Positions 7,596-48,189 of a stretch of DNA of 64,000 bases are shown piece after piece. Source of the DNA: Saccharomycodes ludwigii. Its lineage: Eukaryota > Ascomycota > Saccharomycetes > Saccharomycodales > Saccharomycodaceae. Location: positions 620,001 through 684,000 of the forward strand of contig NC_060206.1 in assembly GCF_020623625.1 (NCBI RefSeq), written 5' to 3'. Made by a program: the position numbers and the translations under genes. The number at the start of each line of letters is the position of its first letter. Position 1 is the first letter of the stretch. A model generated the notes under the pieces. It saw nothing but the letters and a program-made list of their open reading frames with translations. It had not been told where the DNA came from and did no database searches.

Positions 7596-8372
7596 AGTTG
7601 TTGTTGTAACTATTTGTCTGTTTGTTTACTTGTTTTGTTTTAGACTATTCTTTATTGCCTGTGTAATATAGATGGGATGGGGGACACAAAAAGGAAGAAA
7701 GAAAGAAAAAAAAAAAAAAAAGTTTTAAAAAAAAAACGAATGAGGTCCTTTTATACTCGAAAAGAAAAAGAGATGTGTTGGATAATCAAAAGTATATTTA
7801 AGTGGTTGGTTCACTGGGTATATTAAGCCAAGTTTGATTGGCTTTTCTCGGGAAATAATAAAATATTTTGCTTATCTATTTCGATTTTGATTATCGTTAT
7901 AAAATATTTTGCTTTCCGCCTCTCAGAAACCACTGCACACACACATAAAGATAAGTATGGGGGCAGTTTCCCAATCAGGAAACTGGATCCCTGTGTAGAT
8001 TTCCCGCTGTCGCACTCACAAAAAAAATAAAATTTTGTAGCAATTTTAAACGCGGTTTCAAAACCAACAATAAAAAAAAAAAAAAAACAAAACAAAACAA
8101 AAAAAAATATGCCTTTTTTTGTTATTATTAAAGATAAGAAAAACCATTCACCAAATATTTCCCTTTCTGGTATCCAAAAACATGATCTGTGTGCCTCGAT
8201 AAACATAAAAATAATTACTAACAATGATAATTAACTTAAAAATACAAAAGATTAATTAATTAGACATCTAACAAATAAATATATTATTCTTTACTATTAA
8301 AATATGCTATGTTCAGATAATAAAGTACAAATAAGCTGGGGAGAAAAAAGAAAATGAAAAGAAAAAAAAAAT
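7596..8372. promoter_or_regulatory. Promoter of amine oxidase; 3' flank of PDCD5 homologue
   Basis: Upstream region of the minus-strand amine oxidase gene. It contains A-runs near 7708 and 8072-8104 and short GC-containing islands near 7970-8012. No coding or RNA feature recognised; the 133-codon ORF at 7823-8224 is Phe/Ile-rich and looks like a chance reading of A/T runs. Confidence 0.45.
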
Positions 8373-9583: not shown

Positions 9584-11167
9584 CTATAACAAAAGTAATT
9601 CTATGGGTTCGTTCATATCATCACAATTACCACTACTAACTTGCAACTCTTGCTCCTCTTCATCTTCATTTGGCTTCAATCCTATTAAATCACTCAAGAA
9701 AAGATATGGTTCAACTGACTTTGTAAAATAATAACGGACATACCAAGGATCTGGATCTACTAACAAATCATTGCTCCCGTTAAGAGATTGTGAGGCGGCA
9801 TTTTTGTCATTAAACTGCATGTTCATTTTACCATAGTACAATTCTCTTCCATAACCTTGGTCAACTACGGCTGTTACTATTTTTCGTGAGCATTTTCTAA
9901 AAATACAATTAAATAAAACCAAAAATATTCTGAATATCGGATAAAAAATAATTAATGTATACACAAGTATTCCTGACTGTGGATAATGCTTCATTCCTAT
10001 AACATCATTAGAATAACGACTCATACTATTTCCAAAAACAAAGCCAAAGCTAGAAAGAATAGACTGGTATTTTTTATCTACCAAATAGGAAATCCCAAAA
10101 AATATTACTAACCAAATTTCACATAGGAGAAACAGAAAAAGGGCAAAAAAAGTATTTTGATTGTATTTTCTTGCCCATAAATTTGATAGTACCAAAGCAT
10201 AAATTTGATCGTTTTTCTTCGTACCATCTACATCACAACAATTTTCAAGCATATCAGCATTCAAATATAGCTTTTTGTTTTTAAATGGTAGTCCACGTAA
10301 TTTGAATTGAACTATATTCTTTCCGGAAAACTCAGCTATACAAATATCACCAATGTTATTTTTAAAGCCGTATTTGTTATTATTATTACACAATTCCATT
10401 AGATCTTGATACAAATTAAAATCTATTTCTTCTAACTTTTTAGCGCTTCTTATGGGAATTAACGAAATAATAGAGAAAATTATAAGTAGCAGCAAACCTA
10501 TTAATAATAAAGCAACCGATGCATATATCGAAAGGTACTTAATTTGAATTTGTTTAGTTTCAAAATCAGTAATCCTGTTAAATATATTTATGATACCATA
10601 TACCGACATTACCACAGATATAATAATCTTGTTTAGTTTATTGCCTTTATCCTCTTCCGAAGCGGTATCATCCGTGTTTATATGGTGATCACCATAATTA
10701 TGATTCAAAATCCTCTTTGGTATCCAAGCCGAAAATAGTATTAATAGGGCACAAAAAGTAAATGATAAAGAAACAAAAATTACATTATTTGAAATATTTA
10801 TAAAGTCAGCTTCATCCGTATATTTATTGTGGCTGTCAGCAAGCTGCTTCTTTGATGGTCTCAAAACTATATCCAAATAAGAACGTAATTTTGAAGCTCT
10901 AACCCATAACCATGGCAAGAAATTGGGTATCATGAAAATCAGTGTAATCAATATTAGAAAACATAATTGCTCATAAAGTTGTAAAAGCAGCTGAAATCTA
11001 TTTTTTTTGATACTCTCTGGTTTGTTAATATATTTGTTCAGTCTGGGAGGAAGTCTAATGTTGTCAACAGTATTACGATTTATTCTTTTGTATTGTCTAT
11101 TAGTGACATAGATGTTGCAATAAGTAGGTAATGCTAATGAAAAATAGGCAATAAATTTCCAAATCAT
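9584..11167 (-). CDS. Ste24-like membrane protein lacking the HExxH zinc site (putative pseudoprotease)
   Basis: 527 residues, multi-pass. Read against Ste24 (CAAX protease, 453 aa) from memory, it is collinear: WKFIAYFS...TNRQYKRI...LPPRL at the N-terminus (Ste24 WKLI...TYRQYQKL...LPPVL); helix pairs at 67-87 and 127-149 with IPKRILNHNYG (Ste24 LPLSYYSHF); a TM at 211-239 ending SLIPIRSAKKLEEID; then FKLRGLPFKNKKLYL at 288-302 (Ste24 YFTGLPFTSKRIVLF). Where Ste24 has AVLAHEIGHW, this protein has ALVLSNLWARK (324-334), and the downstream Glu ligand region reads IVTAVVDQGYG (430-440). The end DPDPWYVRYYFTKSVEP parallels DPLYSSYHYSHPTLAER. All three zinc ligands appear replaced, so it should not be a zinc protease, yet the frame is fully open. 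A role is unknown. The Ste24 relation is my inference from patterns; an orphan membrane protein is the alternative. Confidence 0.6.
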   Translation of the reverse strand: MIWKFIAYFSLALPTYCNIYVTNRQYKRINRNTVDNIRLPPRLNKYINKPESIKKNRFQLLLQLYEQLCFLILITLIFMIPNFLPWLWVRASKLRSYLDIVLRPSKKQLADSHNKYTDEADFINISNNVIFVSLSFTFCALLILFSAWIPKRILNHNYGDHHINTDDTASEEDKGNKLNKIIISVVMSVYGIINIFNRITDFETKQIQIKYLSIYASVALLLIGLLLLIIFSIISLIPIRSAKKLEEIDFNLYQDLMELCNNNNKYGFKNNIGDICIAEFSGKNIVQFKLRGLPFKNKKLYLNADMLENCCDVDGTKKNDQIYALVLSNLWARKYNQNTFFALFLFLLCEIWLVIFFGISYLVDKKYQSILSSFGFVFGNSMSRYSNDVIGMKHYPQSGILVYTLIIFYPIFRIFLVLFNCIFRKCSRKIVTAVVDQGYGRELYYGKMNMQFNDKNAASQSLNGSNDLLVDPDPWYVRYYFTKSVEPYLFLSDLIGLKPNEDEEEQELQVSSGNCDDMNEPIELLLL

Positions 11168-11836: not shown

Positions 11837-11907
11837 GCATCGGTGGTTTAGTGGTAAAATCCAACGTTGCCATCGTTGGGCCCCGGGTTCGATTCCCGGC
11901 CGATGCA
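11837..11907 (+). tRNA. tRNA-Gly (anticodon GCC)
   Basis: 71-nt cloverleaf, intronless. The acceptor stem GCATCGG pairs with CCGATGC, followed by discriminator A. The D arm contains the GTGG box-A region, the anticodon stem CAACG/CGTTG closes loop TTGCCAT with GCC at 11869-11871, and GGTTCGATTCC is the box-B/T-loop segment. The sequence is nearly identical to S. cerevisiae tRNA-Gly(GCC) except for the acceptor stem. The genomic CCA is absent, as expected in eukaryotes. The probable solo LTR lies 11 bp upstream. Confidence 0.98.
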
Positions 11908-47130: not shown

Positions 47131-48189
47131 ATGTTTCGTTTAAGGAATTCTTTATTAAGGAATAAATATAGCTACAGCAGCAACATTTTAAAAAGAACTT
47201 TTTTTAATATACCAACAGGAAACGGGAGCAATAATTTGAGACCTGTCTACAATAGATTTGATGGAAGCCATCAACAGGGCAATGGTGACGGTGCAAATTT
47301 TACTCAGCTACTATTTGATCCCAGTTCCAGAAAATACTTGGCTATAATTTTTGGAGGTGGTGGACTGTTCTACGTAACACACTTGGACGAAGCACCAGTT
47401 TCGCATAGAAAAAGGTTTATTTGGTTACCACGCATATTAGAATTGAAAATAGGAGAGTATACATACAACAGGGTTTTACAGGAAACAGGACAATCATTAC
47501 TACCAGCTAATCATCCACTAACATTAAAGGTAGAACGGATCTTTCGTAGATTAGTGGATGCTGCTATAAGTGATCCACAAAATGCAAATGTTAGAGATTT
47601 AATTAAAGATGTAAACTGGAAGATACATATAGTGAACGATCCAAGAATGCCACCAAATGCTTTTGTATTGCCCGGCGGGAAAGTTTTTGTTTTCAGCAGT
47701 ATCTTGGGTATTTGTCAAAATGACAATGGGTTAGCAACGGTTTTATCCCATGAGTTTGCACATCAATTGGCAAGGCATACTGCTGAGAACTTGAGTAAAC
47801 TACCTGTTTATACGCTTATGGGGTTGACACTGTACTCAATAACAGGATCAAGTTATTTTAATAGGTTGATTTTAGATGCAGCTATTAGAATGCCTGCTAG
47901 TAGACAGATGGAAACTGAAGCAGATTATATTGGATTAATGATCATGTCTCGTGCATGTTTTGATCCAAGAGAAAGTGTTAATTTATGGAAACGAATGGAA
48001 AATTTTGAAAAAACACAAATGAAAGGAGGAATGCCATTGGAATTTCTAAGTACGCATCCTTCAAGTGATCGTAGGATGGAGAATATGAAGGAATGGTTGC
48101 CCAAAGCCATTAGTATTTATGAGCAAAGTGATTGTAACGCATTTAGAAATGTATTAACCAGAGGTGGGTTTCCTACCCTTTTCGTATAA
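47131..48189 (+). CDS. OMA1: Mitochondrial inner-membrane metalloendopeptidase Oma1 (M48)
   Basis: Zinc protease of mitochondrial quality control and stress response. 352 residues (yeast Oma1 345). The N-terminus is basic (MFRLRNSLLRNKYSYSSNILKR), a presequence; a Gly-rich hydrophobic segment near 70-85 (LAIIFGGGGLFYVT) is the membrane anchor. The zinc site is intact: His207-Glu-x2-His211 in LSHEFAHQLARH, with the third ligand Glu263 in ETEADYIGL. FVLPGGKVFVFSSIL before the site and FLSTHPSSDRRMENM after it match the family. The order PRP16-OMA1-TVP38 is as in S. cerevisiae, although OMA1 is flipped relative to PRP16. It is the working M48 protease here, in contrast to the Ste24-like protein at 9.6-11.2 kb. 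Confidence 0.97.
   Translation: MFRLRNSLLRNKYSYSSNILKRTFFNIPTGNGSNNLRPVYNRFDGSHQQGNGDGANFTQLLFDPSSRKYLAIIFGGGGLFYVTHLDEAPVSHRKRFIWLPRILELKIGEYTYNRVLQETGQSLLPANHPLTLKVERIFRRLVDAAISDPQNANVRDLIKDVNWKIHIVNDPRMPPNAFVLPGGKVFVFSSILGICQNDNGLATVLSHEFAHQLARHTAENLSKLPVYTLMGLTLYSITGSSYFNRLILDAAIRMPASRQMETEADYIGLMIMSRACFDPRESVNLWKRMENFEKTQMKGGMPLEFLSTHPSSDRRMENMKEWLPKAISIYEQSDCNAFRNVLTRGGFPTLFV

Follow-up and report, generated by a model that had tools for sequence, protein, structure and literature searches.

The subject of this analysis is a gene of the yeast Saccharomycodes ludwigii located at positions 9584..11167 (minus strand) of a 64,000-nucleotide stretch of contig NC_060206.1 (positions 620,001 to 684,000), referred to below as the window. 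Its product, a membrane protein of 527 residues, belongs to a family of four paralogues which are remote homologues of the protease Ste24 and in which the zinc site of that enzyme has been lost. We consider it fairly probable that these are Ste24-derived, non-enzymatic membrane proteins, in which a former protease now serves as a membrane scaffold or adaptor. Judged by its sequence, the window protein would be a maintained pseudopeptidase standing outside the M48A enzymes. The assembly analysed comprises 12.5 Mb in 8 contigs, and the window corresponds to C7:620001-684000; the published reference of the species is described, in passages of PMC8567612, as 12.5 Mb in 7 chromosomes with about 31% GC.

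The gene begins with an ATG and contains 527 codons with no internal stop in this open reading frame (ORF), as the original prediction had stated. The window protein was used as query against its own genome and gave five matches at four loci, which are the window gene itself, C7:724890-726383, C5:145512-146987 and C5:1381014-1382642. All four loci carry intact frames (527, 505, 493 and 612 codons), the single TAA counted inside one of the matches being the terminal stop of that gene. The three paralogues display 36-44% identity with the window protein, and the number of Cys is 9-11 per paralogue versus 2 in the S. ludwigii Ste24. The fourth paralogue (L007 721-2559) has a C-terminal extension with an extra hydrophobic segment, unseen in the other three.

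The multi-alignment of the family with 13 Ste24 proteins (numbering of the S. ludwigii Ste24 as reference) reveals that the columns H308, E309, H312 and E404 are occupied in the window protein by S, N, A and S, and in the three paralogues by F/L/L, Q/E/Q, R/K/K and Y/F/F, respectively. The zinc ligands H308, H312 and E404 are gone in all four proteins (the E404 column sits in a gappy region of the alignment, where the exact partner is less certain), and the column of the catalytic E309 contains N, Q, E and Q, a lone Glu being left in one paralogue. The claim that every zinc ligand of the window protein is replaced is confirmed by this alignment, and the catalytic Glu is replaced as well. HExxH does not occur anywhere in the window protein; its presence elsewhere in the true reading frame had been named as evidence against a pseudoprotease. 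None of the four paralogues combines HExxH with a downstream Glu, and the proposal of a pseudoprotease family is borne out by four proteins of one genome lacking the zinc ligands. Among 120 positions conserved in at least 90% of Ste24 sequences, 29 are retained in at least three of the four paralogues and 75 in none. All four proteins retain K20, Q41, K75, W103, P237, G279, P281, G350, F351, G415 and D438; the substrate-side strand SSHSNAYF is missing from the family.

The relationship with Ste24 was evaluated by comparison of profiles. The family profile (4 rows) aligns with a Ste24 profile (22 rows) with a score of 72-73 and a probability of 95.5-95.7, over 386-392 collinear columns with 18-19% identity. 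The best score obtained with 180 column-shuffled Ste24 profiles (60 at each of three block sizes) was 27.9, reversed Ste24 profiles scored 21.3 and 23.6, and the sugar transporter, amino-acid permease and major facilitator superfamily (MFS) families of the same genome scored 20.4, 22.5 and 18.9, respectively. With the algorithm BLASTP, the window protein and the Ste24 of the same genome display 20% identity over 214 columns (E 4e-6, in a single comparison). The homology with Ste24, already suggested in the original prediction, is remote and well above the controls, and rests on the profile-profile comparison together with collinearity.

Several results weigh against this homology. When the family profile is compared with 30 single Ste24 proteins, the scores range from 15 to 45, with a median of 27.6, and the S. 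ludwigii Ste24 by itself scores 33.6 (probability 16.5), whereas single unrelated transporters reach 29.9; as the scores of single Ste24 proteins and single transporters overlap, the signal stands out only with the full Ste24 profile. The Pfam search matched none of the four members with Peptidase_M48 or M48_N, and the PDB profile search with the family profile gave no Ste24 chain up to E 10. Using HMMER with a search space set to 1000, one of the four paralogues fell within the inclusion threshold of the Ste24 profile, and the family profile detected 4 of 120 Ste24 proteins at E <=0.01 versus none of the reversed sequences. These misses, the overlap of the single-sequence scores and the failure of a structure model built without Ste24 rows would be expected of membrane proteins that are not homologues and whose likeness to Ste24 comes from their composition and some short motifs. 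This explanation appears very improbable to us, given that the profile score is 73 across some 390 collinear columns, whereas the shuffled profiles never exceed 28 and the three real membrane families never exceed 23. A weak match with UPF0014 (E 0.0085, below the cut-off) was set aside as a match between hydrophobic helices.

The structure prediction that had been proposed as a check gave a divided answer. When the model is compared by Foldseek, the first 12 rows are all Ste24 or ZMPSTE24. However, 34 of the 37 rows of the input alignment are Ste24 sequences, so the modelled fold is not independent of Ste24; the model obtained from three paralogues alone is uninformative, with a predicted local distance difference test (pLDDT) value of 37.0, and against 4il3 the model has a root mean square deviation of 7.8 with Foldseek and of 5.5 with VIA-align.

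Passages of PMC10456885 describe the water-filled cavity of Ste24 as very large, with a lining of hydrophilic and often acidic residues. In the seven membrane helices we counted 6-9 strongly polar residues in the paralogues, versus 14-18 in the 13 Ste24 proteins and 18 in the Ste24 of the same genome; mean hydropathy is 2.03-2.26 in the paralogues, versus 1.46-1.70 and 1.57, respectively. These values, which serve as a hydropathy proxy for the cavity, were taken from the best 19-residue window of each helix, with helix limits given by the predicted model and in some cases trimmed by eye, and the p of 0.0008 obtained in a rank test is overstated, the rows being related. The gain of hydropathy is clear in transmembrane helix (TM) 6, where the four paralogues lie above every Ste24, and mostly clear in TM2 and TM3, where three of four do so; TM1, TM4, TM5 and TM7 overlap the Ste24 range, which counts against a general drying of the barrel. 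Because the membrane helices contain fewer strongly polar residues, the watery chamber of the modelled fold is probably reduced or closed.

These observations bear on the iRhom-like role offered in the original prediction, in which the dead paralogues would bind Ste24 or its substrates (the a-factor precursor, clients of clogged translocons) and tune the active enzyme. An active-type Ste24 is present in the same genome, and pseudoenzymes sometimes control their active cousins, as stated in passages of PMC11266112. However, polar residues have been lost from the helices, where their number is about halved, and the SSHSNAYF strand is gone, which disfavours the holding of Ste24 substrates in the chamber; the proteins may nevertheless bind Ste24 itself. 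One loose a-factor-like C-terminal pattern had no match in the genome, so this substrate is unseen, although it may still exist. None of the results supports a role in modulating a-factor processing or the clearing of translocons, and we regard such a regulator as unlikely.

Of 17 segments compared among the paralogues, a hairpin followed by a family-specific insert, KKLYL...CCD...TKKNDQ, is conserved best, at a mean pairwise identity of 65%. In the window protein, this segment corresponds to KKLYLNADMLENCCDVDGTKKNDQ (residues 298-321; 10205..10276, minus strand). The insert directly precedes the former HExxH helix (residues 322-338; 10154..10204, minus strand), which reads LSNLWARK where Ste24 has GHEIGHWK and whose mean pairwise identity is 41%. 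The former third-ligand helix IFRKCSRKIVTAVVD (residues 422-436; 9860..9904, minus strand), from which the ligand Glu is gone, is conserved at 28%, the fifth lowest value of the 17 segments. In Ste24, the protease domain sits at the cytosolic interface, according to passages of PMC10456885. Since the hairpin and insert are the best-conserved part of the family and lie beside the former active site, on what is in Ste24 the cytosolic interface, we infer that they may form a putative partner-binding surface on the cytosolic face.

Codon models gave a ratio of nonsynonymous to synonymous substitution rates (dN/dS) of 0.117-0.224 in the six paralogue pairs (2 delta lnL of 55-82 versus neutrality, lnL being the log-likelihood), although dS is of 3.0-5.6 and thus saturated, which makes these values rough. 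The family therefore appears to be maintained and not decaying, as had been claimed from the open frame. The opposite explanation, that the four genes are decaying STE24 pseudogenes, could draw on the loss of the active site and on a STE24 copy of this genome that has lost its start, an indication that such copies can decay here; it is nevertheless hardly credible when all four frames, 493-612 codons long, are intact at a genomic GC content of about 31% (passages of PMC8567612) and dN/dS is 0.12-0.22.

The relation to the active enzyme, left open at first, can be described: the same genome contains one complete STE24 on contig C5 (469 aa, with HEIGH). The copy without its start is found at C7 ~435069-436507 and is 98.9% identical to the C5 gene over 1,315 bp; it lacks the stretch holding the start codon, and its public entry is a protein of 283 aa. 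A genome scan with PF16491 detected these two STE24 copies, and PF01435 detected the same two and the gene at 47131-48189 (plus strand) of the window, which we take, from the likeness of its sequence, to encode an Oma1-like M48 protease. The latter carries HEFAH, and the family profile scores 14.5 against it. There is one Rce1-like frame in the genome. Two complete Ste24 proteins, both with HEIGH, were observed in Hanseniaspora menglaensis, so STE24 has been duplicated in a related genus too.

In the phylogenetic tree, the four paralogues form one clade (100/100) whose stem is 5.81 changes per column long, compared with a median end branch of 0.26. This clade is placed among the Saccharomycetaceae and Saccharomycodaceae (87/99), and its grouping with the Saccharomycodaceae has a support of 54/63. 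Its attachment is unsettled, a point against the proposed derivation: grouping with the S. ludwigii Ste24 or with Hanseniaspora was not rejected by the approximately unbiased test (p-AU 0.298 and 0.441), and the tree program gave warnings for a long branch (fourth paralogue) and an odd composition (window protein). Most simply, the metal site was lost once, before the four-way split, separate losses being possible.

Among 5.8 billion proteins searched with the single sequence and then with the four-row profile, only S. ludwigii proteins were recovered, four each time. Both searches scored only the best 7,996-7,997 candidates by shared words, and the paralogue at C7:724890 was not returned, so unannotated or distant kin may exist in other species. 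The suggested search for orthologues returned none outside S. ludwigii among the candidates scored.

The long stem branch, the restriction of the recovered proteins to one species and the dispersal of four copies without common flanking DNA might also point to a selfish or conflict gene, that is, a fast-diverging family retained through harm or protection in cell or spore conflict. We consider this quite improbable, as purifying selection acts between the paralogues, no repeat or similar DNA was found next to the copies (in about 20 kb compared around each, all matches lay within the four genes themselves) and the copies, at 36-44% identity, are not recent. The neighbouring frames differ among the four copies, as judged by eye from the ORF list. 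Promoter motifs were sought in the four 600-bp upstream regions and in 52 background promoters. The pheromone response element (PRE), the unfolded protein response element (UPRE) and the strict middle sporulation element (MSE) were absent from the four regions; a loose MSE was found in two, and a URS1-like site, a Mcm1-like site and a stress response element (STRE) in one each.

The counterpart of the window gene in strain UTAD17 is SCODWIG_03876, which begins at residue 79 and from which residues 315-432 are missing in frame. Between the two proteins, 236 residues agree and, of the last 95, 4 differ; three of these differences fall in the C-terminal tail (residues 496-527; 9587..9682, minus strand), which has no invariant column among the paralogues. 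The gap at residues 315-432 is probably a wrongly predicted intron, since the three paralogues retain these residues, no exact TACTAAC was found, and the gap opens with GTACG and not with GTATGT. A loose branch-site-like TGCTCAC inside the gap, about 20 bases from its end, means that a real intron may exist. Upstream of the gene, a tRNA-Gly gene was observed at 11837-11907 (plus strand) of the window, about 670 bp from the start codon; in the 20-kb regions surrounding the three other copies none was detected.

Taken together, a duplication of STE24 would have given the founder of the S. ludwigii family; this founder would have lost the metal site, and the four lineages would have split from it later and diverged under purifying selection. 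A seven-helix Ste24-like scaffold may have been kept in the endoplasmic reticulum or nuclear membrane, with an interior that is drier and probably closed, and could work non-catalytically, with a partner bound at the cytosolic face that the former protease hairpin and the new CCD/TKKDDQ insert make up. In its full form, an expanded family whose barrel, without metal site or watery chamber, is a non-enzymatic scaffold with a conserved binding surface at the old active site, this proposal is more tentative. With such a family one can test which regions of Ste24 serve for binding and not for cutting, because the Ste24 framework is kept while catalysis and, apparently, the polar lining of the chamber have been dropped. 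The use of the large chamber of Ste24 is still debated, according to passages of PMC10456885.

With Ste24/ZMPSTE24 (M48A, CAAX prenyl protease 1), the family shares a collinearity of profiles across some 390 columns and the 11 residues kept in all four members; it differs by the absence of the zinc ligands and of SSHSNAYF, by drier helices, by the new CCD/TKKDDQ insert and by its 9-11 Cys. Oma1 belongs to the same peptidase family (M48), but has HEFAH and only the low profile score given above. The iRhoms have a fold other than that of Ste24. They and other pseudopeptidases resemble the present family as dead relatives of proteases that are kept (passages of PMC11266112). Neither Ste24 nor M48 occurs in the main text of that review of inactive metallopeptidases, and STE24, CAAX and paralog were likewise absent in a term search of the main text of the UTAD17 genome paper (PMC7903802). 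Among the open-licence PMC papers examined, we came across no account of a fungal family of Ste24-derived proteins without an active site. M48 would become one more peptidase family in which dead members are maintained, with active and dead forms coexisting in one yeast in which genes can be deleted. In passages of PMC3362292, Ste24 is presented as a single, highly conserved gene across a wide range of animals and plants, and Drosophila as having five STE24 paralogues, among which CG7573 has an altered HExxH and CG30461 is a probable truncated pseudogene. Like the yeast genes, these two are STE24 duplicates with HExxH changed or cut before it, fast-evolving and limited to one lineage; they differ in having arisen within Drosophila according to the tree of that paper, and the likeness is one of description only. 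The nearest precedent for such a change of the active site in a Ste24 paralogue is CG7573.
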